Part shown: piece after piece, positions 15,540-43,393 of the stretch
Layout of the letters: every line of letters starts with the position of its first letter
Position numbering within the stretch: position 1 is the stretch's first letter
NCBI RefSeq assembly: GCF_024662215.1
Contig: NZ_CP096115.1
Coordinates: 248,001 to 312,000 of the forward strand
Direction: 5' to 3'
Origin: Methanoplanus endosymbiosus
GTDB lineage: Archaea; Halobacteriota; Methanomicrobia; Methanomicrobiales; Methanomicrobiaceae
DNA length: 64,000 nt
Program-made: the position numbers and the translations under genes
The notes under the pieces: generated by a model
What the model was told of the DNA's origin: nothing
The model's input: only the letters and a program-made list of their open reading frames with translations
Databases searched by the model: none

Positions 15540-15643
15540 TTTATAGTCTGCCATTATCCGTCACCGGTTTTTGATCTATAAAATATCCGGGTAACATTTC
15601 AGTCGAAGGCTATTTGGCAGTTAAAGTTCAAAACAGAATTATT

Positions 15644-16348
15644 ATGAATAATTACTGGCTGAAAGTTCTGGCACTTTTTATTCTGTCCATCCTCATGGTT
15701 TTTTCATCACCTGCAACAGCAGAGGAATTTTATGTCGGAGATGTCATTAATCTTGGTGGAAGTTCTCCGTCAAATTATGTATATCTCTTTGTTTCCGGAC
15801 CAAATCTACCATCAGGCGGTGCAAATCCTGAAGATATTCAGTCTGCGGTTGTGACTGATGATCCTGACAGTTTTGTAAGGGTTACAGTAAACAGTGGCAG
15901 GTGGAGTTATAAGTGGGACACTTCCACAGCTTCAGGCACACCTGATGCCGGAGTGTACAGGGTTTATGCTGCAAGCAAACCTGTAAGTTTAAGCGATATC
16001 TCATCTGCCGATTATTCAATGACAGTTGTAAATATTGTACGGCCTTATGTTACTGCCGGAGCAGAGGGGGGCATAATTTCGGCAAAAACGGGCGTGGTTG
16101 CCGGAACCGGGGATGAAAAAACTGGTGCTGCTCTCCCTGAGATGAAAACCGAATCTGAAAACGGTGTTGTTGCTGTGGAGAGTATGGTGAATGTGAGTAA
16201 TTCAGATACTGTGGTTACCGGAGCCGCAGAAAGCGGTGGAGATGCACAGCCGGCAACTTCTGAAAAATCTGCTCTTCCGGCAGGTGTTCCTGTACTTTCG
16301 ATTGGCATTTTATTTCTGGTATTTTTTGTCCTGCGTAAAAAGGACTGA
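15644..16348 (+). CDS. DUF3821-type surface protein
   Basis: 234 residues, extracytoplasmic. A signal peptide (WLKVLALFILSILMVF, cleavage near TAEE) is followed by a DUF3821-like domain. That domain opens EFYVGDVINLGGSSPSNYVY and continues through VSGPNLP, the tryptophan-rich WSYKWDTS and GVYRVYAAS. A low-complexity acidic and Ser/Gly spacer follows, then a C-terminal hydrophobic helix with a basic end (LRKKD). The domain is common in Methanomicrobiales; no function is known. ATG 15644 gives a normal signal peptide; the frame is open further upstream through a TTG, without similarity. A terminator hairpin follows directly, so the gene is probably separate from the corrinoid cluster behind it. 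Confidence 0.8.
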   Translation: MNNYWLKVLALFILSILMVFSSPATAEEFYVGDVINLGGSSPSNYVYLFVSGPNLPSGGANPEDIQSAVVTDDPDSFVRVTVNSGRWSYKWDTSTASGTPDAGVYRVYAASKPVSLSDISSADYSMTVVNIVRPYVTAGAEGGIISAKTGVVAGTGDEKTGAALPEMKTESENGVVAVESMVNVSNSDTVVTGAAESGGDAQPATSEKSALPAGVPVLSIGILFLVFFVLRKKD

Positions 16349-16472: not shown

Positions 16473-17447
16473 ATGAAGAAAAAAAATATTCTGGTAATTC
16501 TGATTCTTCTGACTATATCTCTCTTCAGTATTATCTTCTCAATATCCCTTGGACCGACAGAGGTTGAACTGTCCACCCTTCTGGGCATTTTTTTAAATCC
16601 TTCCGGGGCTGATCAAACTGCAAATCTGATAATATTGGACATCAGACTGCCAAGAATATTGTCGGCATTTTTTGTCGGCTGCGGGCTGGCTGTTGCCGGT
16701 GCGGTGATGCAGGGACTGTTCAAAAATTCAATGGCTGACCCTTATATTATCGGAACTTCCTCAGGTGGTGCACTTGGTGCTGCCATATCAATAGTAATTT
16801 TTGCAGGTGCCGGCCTTCCGATATTTGCATTCATTGGTGCAACAGGAGCAACGCTTATGGTGTATGTTCTTGCAACCAAAAACGGCAGAGCGCCGGTAGA
16901 GACTCTTCTTCTCTCCGGAGTTGCCCTGTCCATGTTCTTCTCAGCAATACTCTCATTTTTGATGTATAATGCCGGAAAAAGTCTTCACCAGATTGTCTTC
17001 TGGCTGATGGGAGGTTTCTGGAACGTAGGGTGGACTGATGCTTTAACAGGCCTGATTATTATCTTTGCATCAGTATTTCTCCTCTTCTTCTCAAGGGATT
17101 TAAATATCCTCTCTTTAGGTGAGGATGATGCCGGCACTCTCGGTGTTAATGTTGAACTGCTGAAGAAAGTTCTTCTTGTTGTAAGTTCTCTTGTTGCCGG
17201 AATTGCGGTTGCGATTGCCGGTGCTATAGGTTTCATAGGGCTTATTACCCCTCATGTTATGCGCCTCATTGTCGGGCCTGATCACAGGGTGCTCATACCT
17301 TCGTCACTACTTGCCGGAGGACTTTTTTTACTGTGGGCTGACAATATGACCAGAACATTCTTCAATGAAATGCCGGTCGGAGTAATAACTGCATTTGTTG
17401 GAGCACCGTTCTTCCTGCTCCTGCTCAGAAGGAGGATGAAGGCATGA
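16473..17447 (+). CDS. btuC: Corrinoid/iron-siderophore-type ABC transporter permease (BtuC/FecCD)
   Basis: Membrane permease of 324 residues with about nine or ten transmembrane helices. Family marks include RLPRILSAFFVGCGLAVAGA, the GTSSGGALGA loop, and AGAIGFIGLITPHVMRLIVG, which holds the coupling region contacting the ATPase. It has the normal FecCD length less a few residues. ATG 16473 follows an AT-rich promoter (TTTTACTTAATACAA). Its stop overlaps the start of the ATPase gene by 4 bases. FecCD permeases carry vitamin B12, heme or siderophores; the neighbouring BtuF-type protein and DUF4430 protein favour corrinoid. Confidence 0.9.
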   Translation: MKKKNILVILILLTISLFSIIFSISLGPTEVELSTLLGIFLNPSGADQTANLIILDIRLPRILSAFFVGCGLAVAGAVMQGLFKNSMADPYIIGTSSGGALGAAISIVIFAGAGLPIFAFIGATGATLMVYVLATKNGRAPVETLLLSGVALSMFFSAILSFLMYNAGKSLHQIVFWLMGGFWNVGWTDALTGLIIIFASVFLLFFSRDLNILSLGEDDAGTLGVNVELLKKVLLVVSSLVAGIAVAIAGAIGFIGLITPHVMRLIVGPDHRVLIPSSLLAGGLFLLWADNMTRTFFNEMPVGVITAFVGAPFFLLLLRRRMKA

Positions 17448-18661
17448 TCATTGTAGATGACATATCTTCGGGATATGGCGGGGATGACATAATCCGTGAC
17501 ATATCATTTTCACCGGGAGATGGCGAATTTGTGGGAATTATCGGGCCGAATGGTTCGGGTAAGAGTACTCTTCTCAAATCCATTGCAGGAATTTTAAATC
17601 TTTCATGCGGAATTGTAAAGATTGATGAACTTGATGTATCAAAGGTTTCACCAAAAGATATGGCTAAAACTCTCGGTGTTGTCCCCCAGGAGACTGCAAT
17701 ATCCTTTGATTATTCGGTATTTGATATTGTTATGATGGGCCGTCATGCGTACATCGGCAGATTCAGCCAGGAATCAGCAGAAGATATTGACATTGTGAAT
17801 CATGCAATAGATACATGCAATCTCAGACATCTTGCAGAGAGATCTGTCAATGAAATCAGCGGCGGCGAGAGACAGAGAGTGATTATTGCAAGAGCACTTG
17901 CACAGCAGCCAAAAGTTCTTCTCCTGGATGAGGCAACATCTCACCTCGATATCAATCACCAGATGGAGATACTAAACCTGATAAAGGACCTCTCAGGTGT
18001 GACAAAGATAGGGGTATTCCATGACTTAAATCTTGCATCCCAGTACTGCGACAGGCTTATTTTGCTGAATAACGGGAAAGTCTGCTCATCCGGTCTGCCA
18101 AATGAGGTTATTACCCAGAAGAATCTCTCGGAATTTTATGGTATTAATGCAGTTGTAGCTGTTAATCCGATCACAAAAAAACCGAAGATAGTTTCTCTCA
18201 TTGAATCCGGAGACAAATCAGCAGAAAAACTTAACATTCATATCATCTCCGGCGGAGGTTCGGGTTGTGAGATAATGTATGCCCTTTATGAATGCGGGCA
18301 TATTCTCACTGCCGGAATTCTGTCCATTGATGACTCGGACTACTATGCAGCCAAATCACTTGGAATTGATGTACTGTCAGTTATGCCGTTTTCACCTCCG
18401 GATAATGCAATGCTCTGTAAATTATCAGAAATAATCTCAGAGGCAGATGCTGTTGTTATTGCCGGCATGTGTGTCGGTGACGGGAATATTGTGAATATTG
18501 ATGTTCTCACGGAAAATCAGGATATACCTGTATATGTGGTCGGTGAATTTTCAGATTTCACTTCCGGCGGAAAACTGAATGATACCCTTTCAAAGATCAA
18601 AAAACGGATACATTATGCCGGAGATCTCTCCGGACTGTCTTCAGAAATATCCGGCAGATAA
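17444..18661 (+). CDS. btuD: BtuD-type ABC transporter ATPase with C-terminal extension
   Basis: ATP-binding subunit of the importer, 405 residues. Residues 1-255 are a normal FepC/BtuD ATPase: Walker A IGPNGSGKSTLL, Q-loop VPQETAISFDYS, signature ISGGERQRVIIARAL, Walker B LLLDEATSHLD and H-loop GVFHDLNLA. About 145 further residues follow. They begin LNIHIISGGGSGCEIMYAL and include ITAGILSIDD-like strands and DAVVIAGMCVGDGNI, giving the look of a Rossmann-type nucleotide or corrinoid binding domain. The extension is not needed for transport in Escherichia coli BtuD. It may regulate transport or help process the incoming corrinoid. The start overlaps btuC by 4 bases. Confidence 0.9.
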   Translation: MIIVDDISSGYGGDDIIRDISFSPGDGEFVGIIGPNGSGKSTLLKSIAGILNLSCGIVKIDELDVSKVSPKDMAKTLGVVPQETAISFDYSVFDIVMMGRHAYIGRFSQESAEDIDIVNHAIDTCNLRHLAERSVNEISGGERQRVIIARALAQQPKVLLLDEATSHLDINHQMEILNLIKDLSGVTKIGVFHDLNLASQYCDRLILLNNGKVCSSGLPNEVITQKNLSEFYGINAVVAVNPITKKPKIVSLIESGDKSAEKLNIHIISGGGSGCEIMYALYECGHILTAGILSIDDSDYYAAKSLGIDVLSVMPFSPPDNAMLCKLSEIISEADAVVIAGMCVGDGNIVNIDVLTENQDIPVYVVGEFSDFTSGGKLNDTLSKIKKRIHYAGDLSGLSSEISGR

Positions 18662-18670
18662 ATTAAACTT

Positions 18671-18688
18671 ATTTTAGTTATCTAAAAT
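18671..18688. promoter_or_regulatory. Dyad between btuD and the giant surface protein gene
   Basis: ATTTTAG-TTAT-CTAAAAT is a perfect 7-bp stem with a 4-base loop, 10 bases after the btuD stop. TTATATAATT lies about 30 bases further on, before the next gene. It could be an attenuator that lowers read-through, or an operator of a second promoter inside the cluster. Confidence 0.4.
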
Positions 18689-18749
18689 CTGCGTGAATTA
18701 TTTATTCCCTGAATACCAACATTATATAATTAGTTCTGGAGTTAATTTT

Positions 18750-21700
18750 ATGATATTGGGTATGAATAAGCGGATATATTGCTTAACAATAACATTTCTT
18801 TTAATTATTACATTATTATCAGGAACAGTTTCAGCGTCAGATGCTGATGACCTGAACTCTTCTCTATGCGGGGAGGGTATTGAAGAATACAGGGTTTTTC
18901 CGGGAAATTCCATAGGGAATATTTCTGATGTCGAAAATGAAAAGATGAGATCTTCCGGAGAATCAGTGTCATGTTCTGATTCTGTTAATCCGGATGATTC
19001 TGTAATAGAACAGGTGATCCAACCGGATACGCAGAATAATAACAATTGTCTTTTTTTTGATGAGGAGATTATAACATCTGAAGGCACAGGCCCAAAAACC
19101 GCAAACATCCGCTGGAATACAACTCCTCTCTCCGGTGATGCTGATACTCCGCCTCTAATTGCGGATGGCAAAGTCTTCGTCTCCACCTGGTGGACGACAA
19201 ACCAGATGGATGATTATTACCTCTACTGCTATAACCAGAGTGACGGCACATTTCTCTGGAAGAACACACTTGCCAGTGGAATTGGATCATACCTCGCTTC
19301 AGCCGCAACAGGTGGCGGCAGGATATTTGTCCGGGGCATAAATGGTGTTCTTTACGCCGTTGATATGGATACAGGGGTGACCAAATGGACAAAAACCCTT
19401 GATACCTCGCCTCTGTGGTGGAGCCAGACAACATCATCCCCTGTTGTATCCGGAGATTATATTCTGGCAGTCTCCCAGACAACCGGAATTTTAAGGAAGT
19501 TTGATTTTTCCGGCAATGAGATTAAGACATTCAACGGAGGAGGAACTCTGGAACACAGGAGTTCTCCGGTTGTATCCGATGGAGATGCCTATTTCGCTGC
19601 CGGAGATTCGTTAAAGCTTTTCTCAATTAATTTTGAAACCTTTGAAGAGAACTGGAATTTTGTATCATCTGAAAAGATACTCTCATCACCTGTAATTGGT
19701 ACTGATGCACTTTACTTCACCACTTCATCATACCTTTATGCTCTCAATAAAAGTTCCGGTGAAGAACTCTGGATTGCTGCCATAAGTTCGCCAAGCGGTG
19801 CCGGCACTCCTGCTTTCTCAGACGGGCATCTCTATGTAGGTGAAAAGGACGGGCTGCATAAATACAGTTCAGCAGACGGATCTGAAGTGTGGCATTACTC
19901 ATCAGCAAGCATTGCAGCATCTCCCGCTATTGCTGAGAATGGGGTATATTTCGCCACCAATGAGAAAGCCGGAAAAGTAATCTGCTTAAATCCTGATGAC
20001 GGCACTCTGATCTGGGAGTATACACAGGCAGCACCTGCCGGAGGCTACTTTGCGGCATTCTGGGGTTCATCACCGGTAATTGATAATGAAAAACTCTATA
20101 TCGGCGGTGCATATTATAACACTCTATACTGCTTCGGCAAAATGGATGATTTCAGCTGGAGCGGTGATGTCACACTTGAGGAAGGGCCTGATTTTAAATA
20201 TTCACCAACGAACAATCCGTCAGCAGATTACAATGTAAATGCGGCATCTGATCTTGCAGCGCTGAAGAAAGCGTCAGAGAAAGGCGGGTTTGAGTATTAT
20301 ACAGATGATTCATCATATCCTTCATACAATACATTTGAGCTTACCGGAATTGGAGGGATAAACCAGACAGATGACCTCTCATACTGCTGGTCAGAATACA
20401 TCAACGGTGAGAGAATATCAGAAGGGCTTGCCGGTAATATTTTAAGAGACGGAGACCTTCTCCAGTTTGCCTATGGATTTTGCGATTCCGGGAAAGGGAT
20501 TTACCCGGCACCGGACAACTCCGACAATTCTGTCAATATTACAGTTTCTGTTCTAAAAAAGCAGAACAAAGGGCCAAAAACCTCAAACATCCGCTGGAAT
20601 ACAGCTTCTCTCTCCGGCGATGTTGAGACACCACCCGTTATTGCGGATGGCAAAGTCTTCTTCTCCACCTGGTGGACTACAAACAAAATGGATGATTATT
20701 ACCTCTACTGCTATAACCAGAGTGACGGATCATATCTCTGGAAGAATACACTTGCAAATAATGTAAGTTCTTACCTGGCTTCTCCGGCATCAGGCGGCGG
20801 CAATGTATATGTAAGAGGTACTGACGGTGTACTGTATGCTGTTGATATGGATACCGGAAAAACCAACTGGACAAAAACACTTGATAATTCGCCACAGTGG
20901 TGGAGTCAGGCAACCTCCTCCCCCGTAGTATCAGGAGATTATATTCTGGCAGTTTCGCAGACAACCGGAATTCTGAGGAAATTTGACTTTGAGGGCAATG
21001 AAGTTAAAACATTCAACGGTGGAGGAACACTGGAATACAGGAGTTCTCCCGTTGTATCCGGTGAATATATCTATTTCGCAGCCGGAGATTCTCAGAAACT
21101 ATACTCTTTAAATTTTGAGACCTTTGAGGAGAACTGGAATTTTATATCACCTGAAAAAATACTCTCATCACCTGTTATGGGCACAGATAGTATTTATTTC
21201 ACCACTTCGTCAAACCTGTATGCCATCAATAAAAGTTCCGGAGAAGAACTATGGAGCACTGCCATAAGTTCACCAAATGGTGCAGGCACCCCTTCATTCA
21301 TGGACGGACATCTGTATGCTGGTGAAAAGGATGGTCTGCATAAATACAGTGCAGCAGACGGTTCTGAAGAGTGGCATTATTCATCTGCAAGCATTGCAGC
21401 CTCTCCGGCTATTGCTGAAAATGGCATATATTTTGCCACCAATGAGAAAGCCGGAAAAGTAGTCTGTGTAAATCCGGATGACGGCACTCTGATCTGGGAA
21501 TATGCACAGGCAGCACCTGCCGGAAATTGCTTCGCGGCATTCTGGGGTTCATCTCCGGTAATTGACAATGAAATGCTCTATATCGGCGGTGCATATTACG
21601 ATACTCTCTACTGTTTCGGCCCGGAAATGCCACTTGGAGAACCACACCTCTATGCCTCTCCAAAAGGCGGAAAGGCACCGGTAAATGTAAGTTTTTCTGC

Positions 21701-23903
21701 AACCGGGTGTGAAAATGCAAAGAGATTCGTTCTGGACTTCGGTGATGGTTCAGATAAACATATCTCCGGCAGTCTCTCAGGTGTATCTGTATTACATACC
21801 TACACAAATGTCAGTGAATATACTGCAAAACTTACAGCATATAATAGTGATGAAACTGAATCACGCTCCTGCGATCTGAAAATAAACGTAATCACTGCTC
21901 CGGTGAATAAAACAGCCGAAAATTCTGTCTCAGCCAATGTTCCGGGAGTGAACATTTCGGTTTCACAGCCAGGAATACAGGATATAAGCATTAATCTCTC
22001 CGGTTGGGAAGAATCAGACGGAGTTGCAGGATATACAAAACCTGACGGAACAGAGGTAACGATTCAGACCGGAAATTATACCAAATCAGGCGATGTACTT
22101 TCAGGTGAAGTCACCTCAGTAACAATATCGTCTCCGGGTATAAACGGCAGTGAGATTAGCCCGGATGTGGGAAATGCTTCAGTAAACTTTAATTTTACAA
22201 TGGGTGACTACCAGGAGAATGCCACAGTTGAGACTACCATCTCTCCGGACGTGGTGGATGATGCCAAAAATGCCTTCTCTGTTGCATGCACAGATTCAAA
22301 TCTTGTATGTGACAGTATTGCATATACCGTCTATTTCACAAAATCAGGATTTACCAATGATTCATCAGTCTCAGGAGTAAACCTCTCCTTTACTGTTAAA
22401 AATACCTGGATTGACAGTCAGGGTGGGATTTCAGATGTCAGGATTATAAGATGGAAAGATGACGGAGAGAGTGAAGTTCTGTCACCGTTTTCATATGATA
22501 TTTCCGGAAATTACACCCGGTTATATGTCTATTCCGATGGATTTTCAGTTTATGGCCTTATTATGGCACACAGCAATGCACCTTCACCAACTCCGACTAC
22601 CGGAGGAGGTGGGGGCGGAGGAAGTTCACTGACATACACCCCGGTGACACTTTCATCCGGTACATTTGAAGTAACTGCTACGAACAGTGGGAAAGTCTAC
22701 GATGTTGACATATGCACTGCCCTTGGTATCCTTCATGTAAAGGGAATTTCATTTGTGGTAGATGACGGCTGGTATGCCGAGTATGGAACTCTGTTTGTTA
22801 AATCAGTGCAGGGTGAGGATAATGAGGGAAATGCCGGCTGGATGTACCAGGTAAACGGAAATACAGGAAATATTGGTGCTAATGTATTTAAACTGAACAA
22901 TGGCGATGAGGTATTATGGTATTATAGCGAGAGCATGGAATCCGTGCCCGAAGAATCGGCTCAGAAGATTGCACTTAAAGCCAGTATCTCTTCCTCAGCT
23001 TCGGGCAGTTCCGGCTCTTCTGGCGGAGGTGGCGCGGCCACCACATCAGGTGGAAATGTTTTGGCAGCAACCGGTTCAGTTGATCTGGCAATCGGGCTGC
23101 CTGAGGATTCATCCTTAACCCTTGAAGGCGGAAGGATGTACTTCTCAATAGATATTCAGTCTGCAAAATCCTCCGGTGAGGTGATTGTTCAGGATAAAAA
23201 TTCCCTGATAATCACAAGGGGAGATTTAACTCTTAAAATAAGGTTTAAGGATTATAAAGTACGTGATGGTGTAACTTCCGGTGAGATAGAATCTATATCA
23301 ATCTCCACTGCTCCGGTAATTAAAAATTCCGGGATGGATGCAGGAGTAAAAGCCTGCCTTGATATGGAGATGAACAGTATCCCTGTTGACGGCCAGCTTA
23401 TCCTGTCAATACCTGATGATGTCGATTCCGAGGAAATTAACCGGCTGCTTAAAAGCTCAGGCACAGGAAAAGTAATCGGCAATGCGGTATATGAGCTTGA
23501 TGCTGAGAAAGAGAATATTGAAAACGGTGTGGATGTTGCTTCTGCAACTGTATATATGACTGTGCCGGAAGATCTTCTCAGCAGTAAAGGGGAATTATCT
23601 GAATTCAGGATTGTCCATATACTGGATGATGGCGGTGCAGAGATAATTACACCTGAAATCCTCAATGATGATGAACCGGGCCTGGTGACATTTAAGGGTA
23701 TATCTCAAAACGGTGTATCATCCTCATTTGTTCTTGCAACAATTACATCAGAGAGTAAATCTTCAGGTCAGGCAGGCGAAGATAATCTGAATCTGACCGG
23801 AGAAGAGAATAATGCAGAAAAATCCGGTTCATACGCAATGCCGGTTTTTGCTGTACTGGCTGTTCTGTCTCTTGCAGCAGCCCTGAAATATAACAGGAGA
23901 TGA
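18750..23903 (+). CDS. Giant membrane-anchored surface protein: two beta-propellers, two DUF4430-like domains, PKD
   Basis: 1717 residues. Approximate order: signal peptide (1-30); acidic spacer; first PQQ-type beta-propeller (about 115-463); a DUF4430-like domain (about 465-605, with ASDLAALKKASEKGGFEYY and GIGGINQ); a second, nearly identical propeller (about 609-957); a PKD domain (VSFSATG, DFGDGSDKH, HTYTN); a beta-rich PGF-pre-PGF-like region (RIIRWKDDGE); a glycine run; a second DUF4430-like domain (about 1291-1396, with GWMYQVNG and NNGDEVLWYY); a Ser/Gly linker; another beta-rich domain; and a C-terminal helix with a basic end. DUF4430 is the beta-domain of intrinsic factor and transcobalamin. 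ATG 18750 has GGAG nine bases upstream. The next gene overlaps, so the protein is cotranscribed with the toroid-BtuF gene. A corrinoid-capturing role is inferred. Confidence 0.85.
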   Translation: MILGMNKRIYCLTITFLLIITLLSGTVSASDADDLNSSLCGEGIEEYRVFPGNSIGNISDVENEKMRSSGESVSCSDSVNPDDSVIEQVIQPDTQNNNNCLFFDEEIITSEGTGPKTANIRWNTTPLSGDADTPPLIADGKVFVSTWWTTNQMDDYYLYCYNQSDGTFLWKNTLASGIGSYLASAATGGGRIFVRGINGVLYAVDMDTGVTKWTKTLDTSPLWWSQTTSSPVVSGDYILAVSQTTGILRKFDFSGNEIKTFNGGGTLEHRSSPVVSDGDAYFAAGDSLKLFSINFETFEENWNFVSSEKILSSPVIGTDALYFTTSSYLYALNKSSGEELWIAAISSPSGAGTPAFSDGHLYVGEKDGLHKYSSADGSEVWHYSSASIAASPAIAENGVYFATNEKAGKVICLNPDDGTLIWEYTQAAPAGGYFAAFWGSSPVIDNEKLYIGGAYYNTLYCFGKMDDFSWSGDVTLEEGPDFKYSPTNNPSADYNVNAASDLAALKKASEKGGFEYYTDDSSYPSYNTFELTGIGGINQTDDLSYCWSEYINGERISEGLAGNILRDGDLLQFAYGFCDSGKGIYPAPDNSDNSVNITVSVLKKQNKGPKTSNIRWNTASLSGDVETPPVIADGKVFFSTWWTTNKMDDYYLYCYNQSDGSYLWKNTLANNVSSYLASPASGGGNVYVRGTDGVLYAVDMDTGKTNWTKTLDNSPQWWSQATSSPVVSGDYILAVSQTTGILRKFDFEGNEVKTFNGGGTLEYRSSPVVSGEYIYFAAGDSQKLYSLNFETFEENWNFISPEKILSSPVMGTDSIYFTTSSNLYAINKSSGEELWSTAISSPNGAGTPSFMDGHLYAGEKDGLHKYSAADGSEEWHYSSASIAASPAIAENGIYFATNEKAGKVVCVNPDDGTLIWEYAQAAPAGNCFAAFWGSSPVIDNEMLYIGGAYYDTLYCFGPEMPLGEPHLYASPKGGKAPVNVSFSATGCENAKRFVLDFGDGSDKHISGSLSGVSVLHTYTNVSEYTAKLTAYNSDETESRSCDLKINVITAPVNKTAENSVSANVPGVNISVSQPGIQDISINLSGWEESDGVAGYTKPDGTEVTIQTGNYTKSGDVLSGEVTSVTISSPGINGSEISPDVGNASVNFNFTMGDYQENATVETTISPDVVDDAKNAFSVACTDSNLVCDSIAYTVYFTKSGFTNDSSVSGVNLSFTVKNTWIDSQGGISDVRIIRWKDDGESEVLSPFSYDISGNYTRLYVYSDGFSVYGLIMAHSNAPSPTPTTGGGGGGGSSLTYTPVTLSSGTFEVTATNSGKVYDVDICTALGILHVKGISFVVDDGWYAEYGTLFVKSVQGEDNEGNAGWMYQVNGNTGNIGANVFKLNNGDEVLWYYSESMESVPEESAQKIALKASISSSASGSSGSSGGGGAATTSGGNVLAATGSVDLAIGLPEDSSLTLEGGRMYFSIDIQSAKSSGEVIVQDKNSLIITRGDLTLKIRFKDYKVRDGVTSGEIESISISTAPVIKNSGMDAGVKACLDMEMNSIPVDGQLILSIPDDVDSEEINRLLKSSGTGKVIGNAVYELDAEKENIENGVDVASATVYMTVPEDLLSSKGELSEFRIVHILDDGGAEIITPEILNDDEPGLVTFKGISQNGVSSSFVLATITSESKSSGQAGEDNLNLTGEENNAEKSGSYAMPVFAVLAVLSLAAALKYNRR
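19092..20138 (+). repeat. Propeller module copy 1 (direct repeat, 1047 bp)
   Basis: This stretch, coding for the first propeller, repeats at 20574-21620 with a constant offset of 1482 bases and no insertions or deletions. Most codons and most bases agree, including long identical runs such as the region coding for SGDYILAVSQTTGILRKFDF. The copies diverge by scattered substitutions, many at third positions, so the duplication is not an assembly artefact of identical reads. Confidence 0.9.
20574..21620 (+). repeat. Propeller module copy 2 (direct repeat, 1047 bp)
   Basis: Second copy of the propeller-coding module. The first copy is at 19092-20138 and the spacer between them (20139-20573) codes for a DUF4430-like domain. 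The boundaries are sharp: copy 1 ends after LYCFG and leads into DDFSW; copy 2 ends after the same LYCFG and leads into the PKD domain. Confidence 0.9.
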
Positions 23904-23908
23904 TTAAT

Positions 23909-25924
23909 TTGAGAAAAAAACTGATATCAGTATTTTTAACTGTACTCTTCTTAGTACTGGTCTGCCCGGCAGACAGTTATCCGCTTGGTCTGTCAGACCA
24001 GGAGATAACAGGATCGATAGATTACTTTAAGACATGCCAGAAGTCCGACGGTGGTTTTGGCGAGCAGGATCGTAACTCCAACCCGGGTACTTCAACATGG
24101 GTTATACTTGCCCTCGCCGCTGCCGGAGAAGATATTTCTGAATGGAAATCCGGTAGTGTTTCGGCTATGGATTACCTGAAATCACTTGCACCTGAGACTG
24201 TTGCGCTGGATGGTACATCAGAGACATCAAAGATGATTCTTACCCTGGTAGCTATCGGTGAAGATCCACGCAGTTTTGAAGGAACAGATTTTGTAACTCT
24301 CCTAAAGAGTAAGGAGAAGGATTCCGGGCAGTATGGCGATCATATATATACCACAAACTGGGCTGTTATGGCATTGTCTGCTGCCGGTGAGGATGTTTCA
24401 AAGTCAGTACAATGGCTTGAATCACAGCAGAATGATGACGGTGGTTTTGGCTGGACAACAGGCGCTGAAAGTGACAATGATGATACATCTTCTGCCGTTA
24501 TGGCATTATGCTCAGCAGGAAGAAGTTCATCATCCCCGTCAATAAAATCTGCAATATCATTCTTCAGAAACAGCCAGGGTGATGACGGCGGCTTCAATTA
24601 CGGCGGCTCAAGTTCATCCAATACAGCATCTGATTCGTGGGTTATTCAGGCACTTATCGCCGCCGGAGAAGATCCAATCAGTTTTGTAAAGGATGGTAAA
24701 TCTCCGGTGGACAACCTTATGACATACAGGACAGATGATGGTTATTTCATGTGGACATCACTCTTAACTGACAATCCATGCAGAATGACCTCAGCCGCAG
24801 TCCCGGCACTTCTTGGAATTCCATACCCGATAAAACCTGATGACCACCTCTCAGTTGCAAAAACATCAGCAGGCAGCCAGTCAGGCAGTACCTCAAAGGA
24901 CTCTTCGTCAGATGCTGACTCAACAGGTTCTTCATATCTTTCCGGTTCTGATGCTTCATCAGAGGATTCCAACAGAGCAGTAATCGTAGTTGATGACTTT
25001 GGCAGAAGTGTTGAAATTAACGGTTATCCACAGAGAATAATCTCCCTTGCACCTGCAAACACTGAAATTCTGTATGCACTCGGCCTTGGAGACAAAATTG
25101 TGGGTGTGACAGATTATTGTAATTATCCGGCAGAAGCTGAAACAGTTGAAAAAGTCGGTGGATATTCCACTCCAAATGTTGAAAAAATAGTAGCTGCAAA
25201 ACCTGATCTTATCATTGCATCATTCGGGAACACCGAAGAAGTGGCAAATAAACTCAGGAATATGGGCTTTGTTGTGATCTCAACAAATCCAACTGACATA
25301 TCAGATGTTTTAAATGACATTACCATTATCGGAGAGGCAACCGGAACTGAGACAAAAGCCAGAGAAATTGTAACTGATATGGAAGACCGCATTAATTCCA
25401 TACGGACAAAGGCCGCCGGAGCAGATGAACATCCGACAGTTGCACATATGGTATGGTACGATCCTGTCTGGGTCAGTGGAAGTGAGACCTTCCAGAATGA
25501 GATGTTTGAGATAATCAGTGCAAAGAATGCATTCCCTGAGGTGAAAGGATGGGGCACTGTCAGCCTTGAAGAGTTTGTTGTCACAAATCCGGATGTGATT
25601 GTCGTAAGTTCAGGCTCAGGTATGGGTACAGAAGGGAGGGATGTAATCTACAATTACCTCATGGAAGAGACAAGATTCAAAAACATGAATGCGGTGAAGA
25701 ATAACCGTGTCTATGTTGTTGACGCAGATATTATTGACAGGGGCGGACCGAGAATTGTTGACGGACTTGAGGAGGTTGCAGCCGATGTTTATCCTGATCT
25801 CTTTACATATACAGCTAATAGTGAAAATAATAACTCCGAATCAGCCCCACTCGGAATGTCGGTTATAATGTCGTTAATTGCAGGTTTATCCATTGTTTTC
25901 CTGCGGGGAAAGGAGAAAGCCTGA
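23909..25924 (+). CDS. Alpha/alpha-toroid fused to BtuF-type corrinoid-binding protein
   Basis: 671 residues. A signal peptide (ISVFLTVLFLVLVCPADS) leads into about 285 residues of prenyltransferase/squalene-cyclase-type repeats. These show QKSDGGFGE, QQNDDGGFGW and SQGDDGGFNYGG, and three copies of a W-V-I/M-x-A-L-x-A-A-G-E-D helix. A Ser-rich linker (about 315-355) joins a BtuF/FepB-type binding domain (about 357-645) containing DDFGRSVEI, RIISLAPANTEILYALGLGDKIVGVTDYCN (given here only as a landmark over 380-407) and KPDLIIASFG. A C-terminal helix ends in GKEKA. TTG 23909 is chosen because AGGAG at 23894-23898 would sit directly against the in-frame ATG at 23900. The toroid resembles the alpha-domain of transcobalamin; the BtuF part would deliver substrate to BtuCD. 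Corrinoid specificity is inferred. Confidence 0.88.
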   Translation: MRKKLISVFLTVLFLVLVCPADSYPLGLSDQEITGSIDYFKTCQKSDGGFGEQDRNSNPGTSTWVILALAAAGEDISEWKSGSVSAMDYLKSLAPETVALDGTSETSKMILTLVAIGEDPRSFEGTDFVTLLKSKEKDSGQYGDHIYTTNWAVMALSAAGEDVSKSVQWLESQQNDDGGFGWTTGAESDNDDTSSAVMALCSAGRSSSSPSIKSAISFFRNSQGDDGGFNYGGSSSSNTASDSWVIQALIAAGEDPISFVKDGKSPVDNLMTYRTDDGYFMWTSLLTDNPCRMTSAAVPALLGIPYPIKPDDHLSVAKTSAGSQSGSTSKDSSSDADSTGSSYLSGSDASSEDSNRAVIVVDDFGRSVEINGYPQRIISLAPANTEILYALGLGDKIVGVTDYCNYPAEAETVEKVGGYSTPNVEKIVAAKPDLIIASFGNTEEVANKLRNMGFVVISTNPTDISDVLNDITIIGEATGTETKAREIVTDMEDRINSIRTKAAGADEHPTVAHMVWYDPVWVSGSETFQNEMFEIISAKNAFPEVKGWGTVSLEEFVVTNPDVIVVSSGSGMGTEGRDVIYNYLMEETRFKNMNAVKNNRVYVVDADIIDRGGPRIVDGLEEVAADVYPDLFTYTANSENNNSESAPLGMSVIMSLIAGLSIVFLRGKEKA

Positions 25925-27108
25925 TGAAAAAATATTTTTTTCTTTTTTTTTCCCTGCTTCTCATACTGACAATTCCTTCTTTTGCTGCTGCCGGAAATAA
26001 TGCAGTCAGTACTGATGAAATATACTTTGAAAAGCTCTGGGAGGTAAGAACTGTTCCCGGCACAGCGGAGATTTCCATATCCGGTGACGGTGAAACATTA
26101 GCAGGTGGAGGCACAGGCGGATTTTTCTGCTGCGATAATAAAGGCAGTATATTATGGACAAAAGAACTTGGACTATCAGATAATGCTGCTGTATCAGATG
26201 ATAGCAGAAAAATACTCTCCGGTGGTGTTTCACTCAATCTCTTTGACCATGACGGCAGTTCATTATTCAGGAAAAATTATGGCTATGTCATAAGATCCGT
26301 TGCAATTTCTCATGAAGGTAATCTTCTCTATTTTGCAACAGATAATCAGGATTTGAATATTTATAATACTACAGATGAAACAGAGGTCAGTTTTGATGCA
26401 GGATATGACCTTGATTCAGTTGCAGTATCAGAAGACGGAAACTATATTGCAGGAGGGTCATCAATTGGGGATCTGATATTTATGGATGAGGAGGGCAATA
26501 ACATCTGGACGAGAAAATCCCATTCAGGCAAACCTGTAATTGACCTTGATCTCTCTTCAAAGGGTGATTTTATTGTTTATACCGTTGATGACACACTAAA
26601 CGCCCTGTCACGTACCGGAAATATCCGCTGGAATAAACTAATTGCAGGTGCAAAAGGAGTCGCATTGTCTGCTGATGGCTCTTACACAGCTGTTGCACAT
26701 GATGGTCACGTATCTGTTTTTAACCGGAATGGTGATCTGCTTACAGATATTCCGGGTGTTAATGGCGTAAAGGACCTCTCATTCTCTGATGACGGCGAAT
26801 ATCTTGCATTCTGCACAGATGACACTTCCGGATTATTCCGGATGATAACCAAAGAGTCATCGGGCGTTACAGGCAGTGATTACAGTTCTGATAATACTGA
26901 AGGTCTGGATATATCAGAGAGTAGAGATTATTCAGAAATTCCTCCTGAAGGCGGCAATAAGGATAAACCTCTTTTTTCTGATGTCAGAAATACAGCCGGA
27001 GCAGAAAGAACTGAGAATCCGGAGCAGTCAGGAAATCCTGTTATCGCCCTGACAGGAATATTATTGTCACTGCTTATTGCCGGTTATATTTCCGGCAGAG
27101 ACTGGTAA
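25924..27108 (+). CDS. Membrane-anchored WD40-like beta-propeller protein, last gene of corrinoid cluster
   Basis: 394 residues. The signal peptide (FFLFFSLLLILTIPSFAAAG) is followed by about 300 residues of degenerate WD40/PQQ-like blades. They show a recurring pattern of the type ISGDGETLAGGG, VSEDGNYIAGGSS, LSADGSYTAVAHDG and FSDDGEYLAFCTDD. Then come an acidic spacer and a C-terminal hydrophobic helix ending SGRDW. The start codon overlaps the previous stop (TGATG), with AGGAG upstream, so it is translated with the toroid-BtuF protein. Function is unknown; as an anchored propeller it may scaffold the capture complex outside the cell. Two cysteines (FFCCDN) sit next to each other in the first blade. 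Confidence 0.8.
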   Translation: MKKYFFLFFSLLLILTIPSFAAAGNNAVSTDEIYFEKLWEVRTVPGTAEISISGDGETLAGGGTGGFFCCDNKGSILWTKELGLSDNAAVSDDSRKILSGGVSLNLFDHDGSSLFRKNYGYVIRSVAISHEGNLLYFATDNQDLNIYNTTDETEVSFDAGYDLDSVAVSEDGNYIAGGSSIGDLIFMDEEGNNIWTRKSHSGKPVIDLDLSSKGDFIVYTVDDTLNALSRTGNIRWNKLIAGAKGVALSADGSYTAVAHDGHVSVFNRNGDLLTDIPGVNGVKDLSFSDDGEYLAFCTDDTSGLFRMITKESSGVTGSDYSSDNTEGLDISESRDYSEIPPEGGNKDKPLFSDVRNTAGAERTENPEQSGNPVIALTGILLSLLIAGYISGRDW

Positions 27109-37978: not shown

Positions 37979-38803
37979 ATGGAGATATTCTTTACAAAAC
38001 TACAGGGAAATGGCAATGACTTCATTTTAATTGATGAGATGGAAGAGAATATAATCCCGGATTCAATGAAAGGGCAGTTCTCCGGATTATACTGTGACAG
38101 AAGATATGGTATAGGTGCAGACGGAATTCTGTTCATATCTGCATCTGAAGATGCAGATGTCAGAATGAGACTCTTTCAGCCTGACGGGAGTGAAGCAGAG
38201 ATGTGCGGCAACGGCATACGCTGCCTTGCAAAGTATGCTCTGGATATGAAATATGTCAAAGAAAACTGCACAATAGAGACAGAATCAGGAGTTCTCTCTG
38301 TTGATATGGAGTATGACGCTGAAGGGGAATTTTCTGCAACAATAGATATGGGCAAAATTATCTTTGAGAGGGAGGAGATTCCGGCAGCAGGAAAAGGAAA
38401 ATACTGTGAGGAGATTGACGGCATGGCCGTATATGCAGTAAACACCGGAGTGCCCCACGCTGTGGTCTTTACTGAAGATCTTGAGAGCCTGCCTTTATGT
38501 GAGAGAGCACCACAGATCAGGCATCATGATTCATTTCCAAAAGGAGTAAATGTAAATTTTGTTGAGATTACAGGGGATGATGAGATTGTCATCCGGACAT
38601 TTGAGAGAGGTGTTGAGGATGAGACATTCAGCTGCGGAACAGGATCAACTGCCTCTGCCGCAGTTGCAAATTATCTTGGAAAGACAGGCGATATTGTGAA
38701 TGTCACAACAAAAGGCGGCCCGCTGACGATATATATAACAGAGGGCAGAGCAACGATGAAAGGCCCGGCCGTAACGGTTTTTAAGGGTTCGATATCCTTT
38801 TAA
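37979..38803 (+). CDS. dapF: Diaminopimelate epimerase
   Basis: 274 residues. Cofactor-free epimerase converting LL- to meso-diaminopimelate in lysine synthesis. Both catalytic cysteines are present: MCGNGIRCLAKYA near residue 80 and SCGTGSTASAAVANYL near 219. The start has the usual FTKLQGNGNDFILID. ATG 37979 is preceded by GAGG eight bases upstream and by ATAAATATATAAA as a TATA region. Its last 23 bases overlap the converging radB gene. Methanogens lack murein, so the product is presumably used for lysine only. Confidence 0.95.
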   Translation: MEIFFTKLQGNGNDFILIDEMEENIIPDSMKGQFSGLYCDRRYGIGADGILFISASEDADVRMRLFQPDGSEAEMCGNGIRCLAKYALDMKYVKENCTIETESGVLSVDMEYDAEGEFSATIDMGKIIFEREEIPAAGKGKYCEEIDGMAVYAVNTGVPHAVVFTEDLESLPLCERAPQIRHHDSFPKGVNVNFVEITGDDEIVIRTFERGVEDETFSCGTGSTASAAVANYLGKTGDIVNVTTKGGPLTIYITEGRATMKGPAVTVFKGSISF

Positions 38804-39458
38804 TCCCTTTTTCTGTGATCTCAAACCGGAAATATTCCCCCTCCGGTTTTGACCGGTGCTTCTCTAAAACTGCCCTTCTGAAATTTTTATCTCTCTCTAT
38901 TCTGATGATTACCTTTGAGATATGCCTGAGTGATGTCCCTCCAAGACCTGACAGCCTGTCTGTGTCAATATCGGTATATACCTGATTTGTGACAATTACC
39001 GGAATGTCATACTTTCTGGAATATGCGAGAAGTTTGATCAGCTGCTGTGAAAGCTGCCTCTGTACATCTCCGGATGACGCGGCATTCACCCTGTACAGTG
39101 CTGTAATAGAATCAAGAACAATAAGACCTGTATTTTTTCTCTCCAGAATTTCTCTGCACTGGTCGATCATTATGCTCTGCTCCCTGAAGTCGCAGGGTTC
39201 AAACAAAATGAGATTTGAGGCAAGTTCTTTGGCATTATCACCGGCAATCTGCTTGAACCTCTCAGCAGAAAAACCCTCAGAGTCAATGTATATGACTGAC
39301 TTTCCTGACCTCAGGACACTTACAGCACTCATCAGGCAGAAGGTGCTCTTCCCTCCCGCAGGTTCGCCATAATACTGTGTAATTACTCTGTTCTCCAACC
39401 CTCCGCCTATCAGTTCGTCAAGTTCATCTGCGCCCGTATGTATCTTTGAAATGTTCAT
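38781..39458 (-). CDS. radB: DNA repair and recombination protein RadB
   Basis: 225 residues, a RecA/RadA paralogue without the N-terminal helix-hairpin-helix domain. Walker A is YGEPAGGKSTFC, Walker B is GLIVLDSITALY, and LSGLGGTSLRHISKVIIRIER is the C-terminal core strand region. RadB is thought to assist RadA filament formation in euryarchaea. ATG 39458 (MNISKIHTGADELDEL) is chosen because it has AAAGGA upstream and matches the family N-terminus; an upstream ATG at 39500 would add 14 residues. It converges on dapF with a 23-base overlap. Confidence 0.92.
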   Translation of the reverse strand: MNISKIHTGADELDELIGGGLENRVITQYYGEPAGGKSTFCLMSAVSVLRSGKSVIYIDSEGFSAERFKQIAGDNAKELASNLILFEPCDFREQSIMIDQCREILERKNTGLIVLDSITALYRVNAASSGDVQRQLSQQLIKLLAYSRKYDIPVIVTNQVYTDIDTDRLSGLGGTSLRHISKVIIRIERDKNFRRAVLEKHRSKPEGEYFRFEITEKGIKRISNP

Positions 39459-39601
39459 CTGTCCTTTCTCTGCAAAAAATATGGTATTATCTGTATTCAT
39501 TTTTTTCTTTCAGTCAGATCTCCGGCGATAAACAACATCCTGTGCCGGAAACTTCTCTTCAGCCTGAAGATAATGATGTGCAGGTATATTCAGGGTTAAG
39601 G

Positions 39602-40801
39602 TTAGTTCAGCCCCGTGCTGCCAAATCTTAACTTCAATATCTGATGCCCCTTTTCTGTGGCAATTCTTCTGACTTCCTGCAGCGGAATGCCTGTATCTTC
39701 AGCAATGTTTCTGATATCCTCATACTCCGGCTTAAGTGAGATTATTCTGTTATCCTTTACTCCGGCTTTAATAGCTACGGTATAGCTCTTATCTCCGGCA
39801 GTCAGCTCAATTTTTTCAAATACTCTCGTTATAGCAGTTCTGTGCACTGATTTGAAATGCCGGATGCCCAGTGTGCCGAGTTCATCGCATAAAATTCCTA
39901 CGAACATATCGGAATCTTTCGGGCTGCATATGACTTTTATCAGATGTCCGGGCCTGCCCTTCTTCATTATAGCCGGAATTGCAGATACATCCCTTGCACC
40001 GGAGTTCATTATTTTCTGCATGAGATACGCAATATTTTCTCCGGTTGTATCATCCACATTTGTCTCCAGGATGTCCACAATGTCTGCTTCACTCTCTTCT
40101 GATTCAACTGTATATACTCTGAGGACATTTGGTGTCTCTGTTGTATCAGCAGTGCCCGCACCATATCCTGTGGATTTGACTGTTCCCTCCGGGGGTGCAT
40201 CAGATCCGGCATGTGAATAAAATTCGGATAATAATGCTGCTCCTGTTGGTGTCAGCAGTTCTGCTTTTTCATCGGAGTGTGAGAACCTGAGCTTACTTCT
40301 GCGCATTATCTCCATAGTTGCGGGCGCAGGAACCGGAATAAGTCCGTGTGCAGACTGTACAAATCCTGTTCCTGCCTTTACCGGCATTATAAAGACCTTA
40401 TCGGGGTTAACTGAAAAGAATGCGGTGCATGCGCCAATAACATCTGCAATGGCATCATCCGCGCCTACTTCATGAAAATGAGGACAGTGACCGTGTATCG
40501 TCTCTTCAGCGTCTGCAATTCTTCCAAAAACGGACAATGCCATCTCTATCACATTTTTGGGCGCTGATGCGGTTTTAACGATCGAATAGACTTCTTCAGG
40601 CGTTCTGGAGATCTTCTCTGCATGGGTATTGATATATAAAGCTGATATTCCACACTTATTCACCCGTTTAAGAGACGGTTTCGCCACAACAGACTCCATT
40701 GCGGCCATAACATCCCTTTCATCTGCACCAAGATCAAGCAGAGAGGATATTATCATATCTCCTGCGGCACCATGGAATGGATCAAATACAATAGTGAGCA
40801 T
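39602..40801 (-). CDS. larC: LarC-type nickel-pincer cofactor/nickel insertion protein
   Basis: 399 residues of the LarC (UPF0272) family. FDPFHGAAGDMIISSLLDLGA at the N-terminus, the histidine-rich HGHCPHFHEVGADDAIADV and PVPAPATMEIM are family hallmarks. C-terminal LETNVDDTTGENIAYLM and KKGRPGHLIKVIC complete it. LarC inserts nickel into the pyridinium dithiocarboxylate cofactor of lactate racemase using CTP. Many archaea carry larC without a lactate racemase, and its job there is open. LarB/LarE are not in this window. The start is 51 bases from the divergent AAA ATPase gene. Confidence 0.9.
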   Translation of the reverse strand: MLTIVFDPFHGAAGDMIISSLLDLGADERDVMAAMESVVAKPSLKRVNKCGISALYINTHAEKISRTPEEVYSIVKTASAPKNVIEMALSVFGRIADAEETIHGHCPHFHEVGADDAIADVIGACTAFFSVNPDKVFIMPVKAGTGFVQSAHGLIPVPAPATMEIMRRSKLRFSHSDEKAELLTPTGAALLSEFYSHAGSDAPPEGTVKSTGYGAGTADTTETPNVLRVYTVESEESEADIVDILETNVDDTTGENIAYLMQKIMNSGARDVSAIPAIMKKGRPGHLIKVICSPKDSDMFVGILCDELGTLGIRHFKSVHRTAITRVFEKIELTAGDKSYTVAIKAGVKDNRIISLKPEYEDIRNIAEDTGIPLQEVRRIATEKGHQILKLRFGSTGLN

Positions 40802-40852
40802 ATATGAGAAGTACTTATATCCATTAGCATATATTTGTCTTAAGGTGTCATC

Positions 40853-43393
40853 ATGATAAATCTCAGAACTGATAGTGCTTATCCTGAAGATCAGGGAAGC
40901 GGAAGGGCAAGACTTGATCCTGAAACGATGCTTCAGCTTCGTATCTCCCCCGGAGATCTTGTCTTTCTTGAAGGAAAAAGAAAGACTGTTGCAAAAGTCT
41001 GGAGGATGATGGTCAATGACTGGAATCAGGAAAAAATTAAGATCGATAATTTTACCAGGATGAACGCCGGAATCAGCATTGGTGACCGGGTTTCAGTAAC
41101 GCCTATAAAAGAAGTTATACCTGCTAAAAGAGTTGTTCTGGCCCCGCCTGAGGATCTCCCCCGGCAGCTGCCGATAAATTACAACAGTGCAATGTCAAGG
41201 CTCATTGATTATCCGGTACTGCTCGATGACAGTGTACCGGTTCTCGCCGGGATGCCGTTTGTTCAGCCTCAGCCAGTAGCATTCAAGGTTATTTATCTTG
41301 AGCCTGAAAATGCAGTGATTATTTCCAGAGATACAGAAATAGAATTTTCAGATAAGCCCGCAGCAGGTTTTGAAGGTCTGAAGCTGATCTCTTATGAGGA
41401 TATCGGCGGGCTGAAAACTGAACTTCAGAATGTCAGGGAAACCATTGAACTTCCAATGCGGCATCCGGAATTATTCAGTAAACTTGGAATCGATCCCCCA
41501 AAGGGTGTTTTACTGTACGGCCCGCCGGGAACAGGAAAGACCCTGATTGCTAAAGCAGTGGCAAATGAGAGCGGCGCACATTTTATCTCAATAGCAGGGC
41601 CTGAAATAATCTCAAAATACTACGGTGAGAGCGAGCAGAGGTTAAGGGAAATCTTTGACGAGGCTGAAGAGAATGCTCCTTCGATCATATTTATAGATGA
41701 ACTGGACTCCATCGCGCCCAAAAGGGAGGATGTAACCGGTGAAGTTGAGAGAAGGGTTGTTGCTCAGCTTCTGACTATGATGGACGGTCTTGACGAAAGA
41801 GGGCAGGTCGTTGTAATTGGTGCTACAAACCGGCTTGATGCCATTGATCAGGCACTCAGAAGGCCGGGCCGCTTTGACCGTGAGATTGAGATTGGAGTGC
41901 CGGGAGAAGAGGATCGTATGGAGATCCTACGCATCCATACCCGTGGTATGCCAATTGAAGGGGAAAACAGAATTATAGCCAAGAAAAAAGAGTTAAAGGC
42001 CACAGAATCCAGTGACAGAGGAGAACTTGAAGAAGAACTCCGGATGATAAAGGATGAAATAGGCAGAACAAGGGAGATGCTCTTAAAAGAGCTTGCAGGT
42101 AAGACAACCGGTTTTGTCGGTGCTGATCTTGCATCACTTGGCCGAGAGGCAGCAATGAGAGCACTCAGAAGATATCTCCCGCATATTGATCTGGAGTCTG
42201 ATGAGATATCTCCGGAAATTCTTGAATCCATTGAGATATTAATAAAGGACTTCAGGCTGGCTTTAAGGGAGATCAGTCCCAGTGCAATGCGTGAAGTATT
42301 CCTTGAAGTTTCCCATATCAACTGGCGGGATGTCGGCGGCCTTGATTCTGAGAAAGAAGAGGTTCGCGAGACTGTTGAATATCCACTCACCAAAAGGGAC
42401 AGTTTTGAAGAACTCGGTATTGAACCACCAAAAGGTGTTCTGCTCTATGGCCCTCCGGGAACAGGAAAAACCCTGATTGCAAAGGCAGTGGCAAATGAGA
42501 GCGGGGCAAATTTCATTCCTGTCAGAGGGCCGCAGCTGCTTTCCAAATGGGTTGGTGAGAGTGAAAAGGCTGTCAGGGAAGTATTCAGAAAAGCACGTCA
42601 GGTAGCACCGGCAATAATATTTTTTGATGAGCTTGATGCCCTTGCACCTGCAAGGGGGCGTGGATCGGAGTCCCACGTCATTGAAAGCGTGTTAAATCAG
42701 ATTCTGACTGAATTTGACGGTCTTGAAGACCTTACCGGTGTTTCAGTGCTTGCCGCAACCAACAGGCCCGACATCATTGACCAGGCGCTCCTGCGTGCCG
42801 GAAGGTTTGATCGGCTGGTCTATATCGGAGAGCCGGATGAGAAGTCACGTGAAAAGATACTGCATATTCATTCCAGATTTTTGCCGATAGAGAATTCTGT
42901 CATAGAGAATATTCTTGAGATTACCAAAGATTTTGATGAAGTAATGTTTGAGGAGATCTTTGTTGATATCCGTAAGAAGCGTGATATAATGCCCAACAGG
43001 ATTATCACTGTGGATGAAATGAAAAAGGCGTGTGAGTCATGCAGTAAAAAGGCTGAAAAGAGACTTCCCTCAGGCAAAAGAAGAAAGATTATAATTGAAC
43101 TTCTGAGCAAGAATGCACTCAGGCTTGATGATCCGGCGAGGGATGCTCTGATTGTTAAGATAGCAGGGAAAACAGAAGGCTATGTCGGTTCAGATCTTGA
43201 ACTGCTCTGCCGGGAATCTGCAATGTTTGCTATGAGAGACGGAAGAAATATTGTTGGTGAGAGTGATTTTAAAAAGGCGCTTGCCAAAGTGCATCCTATG
43301 ATGAATGAAAATCTAAGGGAGCAGTACAAAAATATGAAGAGCCATTTTAAAGGCGGGCGGCCTAAAGACATTCAGCCTGTAGAATATCAGTGA
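40853..43393 (+). CDS. CDC48/VAT-type double AAA ATPase with lid insertions
   Basis: 846 residues. An N-domain (1-175, double-psi barrel type) precedes D1 with GPPGTGKTL (223-231), [10 protein letters not shown] and [16 protein letters not shown]2 has GPPGTGKTL (533-541), [10 protein letters not shown] and [15 protein letters not shown]. The family unfolds ubiquitin-like tagged or damaged proteins and feeds the proteasome. Two insertions stand out: about 42 residues in D1 (approx. 370-412, charged, coiled-coil-like) and about 85 residues in D2 (approx. 681-768, with a CESC pair). Both lie at the same place, between the [16 protein letters not shown] strand and the GKTxGYVG(A/S)DL lid helix. 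Otherwise complete; no key residue is missing. Confidence 0.93.

Follow-up and report, generated by a model that had tools for sequence, protein, structure and literature searches.

What is the function of an archaeal operon in which the genes of a BtuCD-type importer are followed by genes for large surface proteins? Such an operon is found in a 64,000-nucleotide stretch of DNA from Methanoplanus endosymbiosus (contig NZ_CP096115.1, positions 248,001 to 312,000), which we call the window and from whose first base positions are counted; the host genome is a single contig of 3.16 Mb. The operon encodes, with a probability that we put at about 0.7, a system that would bind corrinoids (the vitamin B12 family) at the cell surface and import them. 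Its conservation, the transcobalamin-type domains predicted for its largest product and the corrinoid genes beside its relatives carry this reading, whereas the nearest matches of one domain, an alpha/alpha-toroid, point elsewhere.

A conserved five-gene operon

The operon consists of btuC, btuD, a gene for a giant anchored protein, a toroid–BtuF fusion gene and a propeller gene, all on the + strand and packed within positions 16473-27108, with intergenic spacings of −4, +31, −4 and −1 bases. The first gene, btuC (16473..17447), encodes a FecCD-type permease (PF01032, 1.4e-92), and btuD (17444..18661) encodes an ATP-binding cassette (ABC) ATPase (amino acids 1-250, ABC_tran) with a C-terminal domain (amino acids 255-405) that has no Pfam match. 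The giant protein (18693..23903) was matched by PQQ_2 (1e-68), PKD and, twice, DUF4430 (1.6e-16) in Pfam. The toroid–BtuF fusion (23900..25924), which has a signal peptide and a C-terminal anchor, was recognized by Pfam and by its homologues in relatives, and the last gene (25924..27108) encodes an anchored protein with WD/PQQ-like propeller blades (Pfam). A hydrophobic N-terminal stretch and a C-terminal membrane anchor are present in each of the giant, toroid–BtuF and last propeller proteins. The five-gene run with its overlapping toroid–BtuF gene, as given in a preliminary description made from the DNA letters alone, was confirmed by the open reading frames and Pfam matches. Directly upstream of btuC, positions 15614-16348 encode a small exported anchored protein with a partial match to a MEMAR S-layer glycoprotein family (8e-26).

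The neighbourhoods of 64 toroid loci from the Methanomicrobiales, the Archaeoglobaceae and a third family were read. The closest named relatives with a toroid–BtuF fusion belong to the Methanomicrobiales; the complete fusion was present in approximately 25 of 60 genomes of this order, with 43-88% identity between relatives and almost always the same neighbours. Because the fusion recurs with the same neighbours across the order, the operon is far beyond chance, and the conserved operon is real. Within the stretch read, DUF4430 was adjacent to the toroid in 62 of the 64 loci and BtuF in 61, and a PQQ propeller was found in 53; several of the exceptions were contig ends. The co-occurrence of toroid, DUF4430, BtuF and BtuCD, for which the preliminary description had proposed a survey, was borne out by these counts. 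DUF4430 and the PQQ propeller were missing from all seven toroid-less btuCDF loci read, including those of Methanomicrobiales.

The usual order was a propeller with DUF4430, the second DUF4430 domain, the toroid and BtuF, with gene boundaries that shift between groups. In the Methanomicrobiales (38 loci), the toroid was fused to BtuF, and DUF4430 domain 2 either ended the giant protein or formed a gene of its own. In the Archaeoglobaceae and one neighbouring family (20 loci), DUF4430 domain 2 and the toroid formed one protein and BtuF was separate, and in a third family of the phylum (L144-L146) all parts were separate genes. This order is not absolute, because the Methanocorpusculum-type loci L151, L186 and L187 place the fusion before the propeller gene. 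The btuC and btuD genes were located before, divergent from or after the propeller–DUF4430–toroid–BtuF block, and the anchored WD/PQQ-like propeller gene was kept as the last gene in most Methanomicrobiales loci.

Two groups of loci departed further from this layout. Three loci from one family of the phylum (L147, L148 and L149) encode a divergent toroid, in two of the three within proteins of approximately 1800 amino acids; PQQ propeller and DUF4430 genes lie beside it, and no btuC or btuF was found in the stretch. In Methanogenium cariaci (L170), btuD, the propeller/DUF4430 gene, the toroid/BtuF gene and the last propeller gene appear to be fragmented into many short frames, as would be seen in a decaying copy or after poor assembly.

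The DUF4430/SLBB domains of the giant protein

The giant protein is composed of a propeller, DUF4430 domain 1, a further propeller, PKD, DUF4430 domain 2, a PGF-type region and the C-terminal membrane anchor. Its GTG start is doubtful, and an ATG at 18762 would begin a signal peptide. Both DUF4430/SLBB domains (hereafter SLBB1, amino acids 489-603, 20157..20501, and SLBB2, amino acids 1317-1416, 22641..22940, 4.7e-13) exceeded the PF14478 cut-off of 23.8 bits, with 51.3 bits and, for SLBB1, 24.2 bits. A family profile of SLBB1, searched against 177,635 PDB sequences at E<=1, retrieved only transcobalamin-1 (0.002) and transcobalamin-2 (0.8). Unlike SLBB1, the SLBB2 profile had no significant PDB match by sequence alone; the two profiles are homologous, with an hhalign probability of 99.2%.

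The structure of SLBB2 was modelled alone with AlphaFold2 (predicted local distance difference test, pLDDT, 91.3; predicted template modelling score, pTM, 0.83). In a Foldseek search of this model against 350,542 PDB chains, ranks 1-19 were all transcobalamin, haptocorrin, intrinsic factor or 3u7z, a bacterial DUF4430-like protein annotated as putative metal binding. The E-values were modest (0.006 and above), and only these 19 ranks had a Foldseek probability above 0.15, the next match having 0.05. Alignment with VIA-align gave Z scores of 7.6-8.6 for the cobalamin carriers and 3u7z (root-mean-square deviation, rmsd, 2.3-2.5; 80-82 residues aligned), and no other chain among the 142 aligned to SLBB2 reached Z 2. 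As modelled, DUF4430 domain 2 is a domain of the transcobalamin-type beta fold, and the same assignment in the preliminary description was upheld by the SLBB1 profile and by the Foldseek and VIA matches of SLBB2.

The importer, its ligand and the toroid

A FecCD permease, its cognate ATPase and a BtuF-type binding protein share this one operon. The BtuF-type domain (amino acids 360-650 of the fusion, 24977..25849; PF01497, Peripla_BP_2, 1e-42) matched the B12-binding protein 5ysc (2e-31) and E. coli BtuF (1n2z, 5e-26) in the PDB, and the best NCBIfam models for btuC and btuD were the corrinoid models PRK09535 and PRK09536. Several observations weigh against the corrinoid reading, some concerning the ligand and others, given further below, the toroid. 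Both NCBIfam scores were below their cut-offs (337 bits against 461 for btuC; 319 bits for btuD), and BtuCDF-type transporters are hard to separate from heme and iron transporters (PMC2667541). The host also encodes CbiD, a protein of de novo synthesis, and may not need B12 from outside.

The same machine could be imagined to capture and import something else: another tetrapyrrole (heme or F430-like), a chelated metal or, as raised in the text of Burroughs et al. (2007) for archaea capable of B12 synthesis, a "distinct metabolite". This reading has CbiD on its side, and 4m7o, named "iron-binding protein", outscored all other PDB matches of the BtuF domain. However, the BtuF domain also matched E. 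coli BtuF, and all structure matches of the SLBB domain except 3u7z were cobalamin carriers. Furthermore, six related clusters, all from Archaeoglobaceae, have cbiZ, which encodes an amidohydrolase of corrinoid salvage, immediately between btuD and the propeller–DUF4430 gene (identified by Pfam in one of the six and by similarity in the others). Organisms that make B12 can also salvage it, and the host carries cbiZ elsewhere in its genome; because cbiD and cbiZ are both present, the gene content suggests that the host is probably able both to make and to salvage corrinoids. We consider a different ligand unlikely.

Further genes were observed near these clusters. A xylose-isomerase-like triosephosphate isomerase (TIM)-barrel gene (PF01261) is present near btuCDF at L067 10153-10995 and in 15 other loci, with or without a toroid, and is a possible corrinoid-related enzyme. 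In L054, L067, L150, L167, L168 and L174, a double-ATPase ABC gene resembling those of energy-coupling factor (ECF) transporters is encoded on the opposite strand at a distance of a few kb from the btu genes, and several of these loci also have a CbiQ-type gene. The C-terminal domain of BtuD without a Pfam match (18206-18661, approximately 150 amino acids) is conserved in the BtuD proteins of Methanomicrobiales and present in many Archaeoglobaceae loci, and it is missing in some (L133).

It is also conceivable that corrinoid import is the work of BtuF–BtuCD alone, with the propeller and DUF4430 parts acting as modules of general surface or S-layer adhesion. Archaeal surface proteins often contain PQQ and PKD domains, which fits such a role. 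So does a protein of the same genome, distant from any btu gene, that is exported, 1123 amino acids long and composed of six near-identical type 1 DUF4430 domains followed by a dockerin-like C terminus (L009 6616-9987; G000:C1 ~38615-41986). However, the Archaeoglobaceae fuse DUF4430 domain 2 to the toroid, and the btu loci that lack a toroid also lack DUF4430. Adhesion modules are accordingly a distinctly improbable explanation of the surface proteins.

The toroid domain of the fusion (amino acids 25-312, 23972..24835) was assigned by PF13243/PF00432 (SQHop/Prenyltrans, ~1e-12) and by the fold of a 46% identical relative, the toroid of an Archaeoglobaceae SLBB–toroid fusion. The whole model of this relative had a pLDDT of 88.3 and a pTM of 0.63, a value at which the arrangement of the domains relative to one another is uncertain. 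In HMMER searches, the toroid family profile matched squalene-hopene cyclases and prenyltransferases, and the best VIA match of the relative's model was squalene-hopene cyclase (Z 25.8, rmsd 2.8, 262 residues). Transcobalamin and intrinsic factor were absent among the 50 matches listed for the SLBB–toroid model, a list filled by toroid enzymes, and we do not count this absence as evidence against. A DxDDT motif (DNDDT at 24473..24487 in the window, from the family alignment) is invariant in 53 of 53 toroids and occupies, in the HMMER alignment, the place of the squalene-hopene cyclase acid motif DxDD.

The generic toroid families matched all 53 toroids. The eukaryotic cobalamin-binding family PF01122 matched 14 of the 53, the best E-value being 3.8e-5, whereas 10 further toroid proteins, of which most are true cyclases, gave no match to it; the sample is too small and its members too closely related to bear statistics. 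The link between the archaeal toroid and that of transcobalamin is thus no more than suggestive at the sequence level. Given that cyclases are its nearest matches, that the tie to PF01122 is weak and that DxDDT is kept, the toroid seems to be of the right general kind without belonging clearly to the branch of transcobalamin, and it may have a cyclase-like activity. The preliminary description had proposed a transcobalamin-type toroid: the alpha/alpha fold and the 14 PF01122 matches agree with it, while the nearest relatives do not. It had also held that closer structural matches of the toroid and DUF4430 parts to other families would refute it, and for the toroid half this was formally the case, a result softened by the single fold common to the toroid families.

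Very improbable, finally, is that the toroid is an extracellular single-domain class II terpene-cyclase-like enzyme using the DxDD acid and merely sharing an operon with a corrinoid importer: its motif is at the squalene-hopene cyclase position and such single-domain cyclases exist (MstE is among both its sequence and its fold matches), but the toroid is exported, fused to BtuF or SLBB and linked to them in nearly all loci, no terpenoid genes were seen among the conserved neighbours checked, and its Asp residues might just as well bind the amides of a corrin.

Proposed mechanism and comparison with known systems

For corrinoid capture and import, the following mechanism is proposed. At the cell surface, the giant protein would present its DUF4430/SLBB beta-domains of transcobalamin type, and its partner would present the alpha/alpha-toroid covalently tied to BtuF. 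A corrinoid would be captured there by the DUF4430/propeller protein, would most likely be enclosed by SLBB domain 2 and the toroid in the manner of transcobalamin, and would then be handed to the tethered BtuF and imported by BtuCD using ATP. Three points of this scheme are inferred, namely which ligand is bound, that SLBB closes over the toroid in trans, and in which sequence the corrinoid is passed on; that DUF4430 domain 2 and the toroid of the window would act together in trans is proposed mainly because the Archaeoglobaceae have a natural DUF4430–toroid fusion. The most novel form of this idea is a "split transcobalamin", in which the corrinoid would be closed in trans by an SLBB domain on one anchored protein and a toroid on the BtuF of the importer, capture and hand-over taking place in one surface complex. 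We put it forward tentatively, at somewhat less than even odds.

On this split reading, the archaeal re-fusions (SLBB–toroid, toroid–BtuF and all parts separate) would show a possible route from a multi-protein importer to a one-chain carrier of the transcobalamin type. If the operon does serve corrinoid capture and import, it would give archaea a defined and testable B12 capture machine, would link the transcobalamin fold with BtuCDF import and would bear on the origin of the animal intrinsic factor/transcobalamin plan. The natural fusions would allow corrinoid binding by SLBB and toroid to be measured jointly and apart, and a Pfam "domain of unknown function" family would become surface proteins with a specific prediction.

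Part of this proposal is older than the preliminary description, which knew of no described system with a split layout. Burroughs et al. (2007; PMC1796856), our sole source on the bacterial SLBB–toroid proteins, defined in their text a transcobalamin-like SLBB clade and noted toroid fusions, propeller fusions and euryarchaeal members. They predicted that surface-anchored bacterial SLBB+toroid proteins are B12 scavengers and left the archaeal ligand open. B12 scavenging by toroid plus DUF4430 was thereby already proposed in 2007, whereas no description of the split layout, of the BtuCDF coupling or of the toroid–BtuF fusion was found in the literature; searches on archaeal DUF4430 and on toroid–BtuF fusions returned nothing relevant. 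The text of PMC1796856 does not mention BtuF, but the paper's figures show some archaeal neighbourhoods (Methanospirillum and Methanosarcina are among its abbreviations). According to that text, the bacterial proteins occur with CbiO/CbiQ-type transporters, whereas the archaeal window has BtuCD and the toroid–BtuF fusion.

The permease, ATPase and BtuF of the window operon are common to archaeal and bacterial BtuCDF systems. In contrast to a plain BtuCDF, its BtuF is membrane-anchored with an N-terminal toroid, and it has extra surface proteins and an extra BtuD domain. An analogous plan is known from Bacteroides, where the surface propeller BtuG and accessory binding proteins such as BtuH load the B12 importer BtuB (PMC10404256, PMC6143338), but that system is outer-membrane and TonB-dependent; searches with the window propellers returned generic propellers, BamB and designed ones among them, and no sequence match to BtuG.

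Animal transcobalamin, haptocorrin and intrinsic factor share with the window an SLBB/DUF4430 beta-domain and an alpha/alpha-toroid, here probably used for corrinoid capture. Transcobalamin carries both domains on one chain with the toroid first, whereas the window distributes them over two anchored proteins, and the Archaeoglobaceae fusion has SLBB first and then the toroid. The archaeal toroid also differs from that of transcobalamin in its greater similarity to squalene-hopene cyclase and in its DxDD motif, and the archaeal system is coupled to an ABC importer, whereas the transcobalamin family is coupled to an endocytic receptor. Since the window proteins lack the one-chain, toroid-first arrangement, we describe them as proteins that would work like transcobalamin, and not as transcobalamins.

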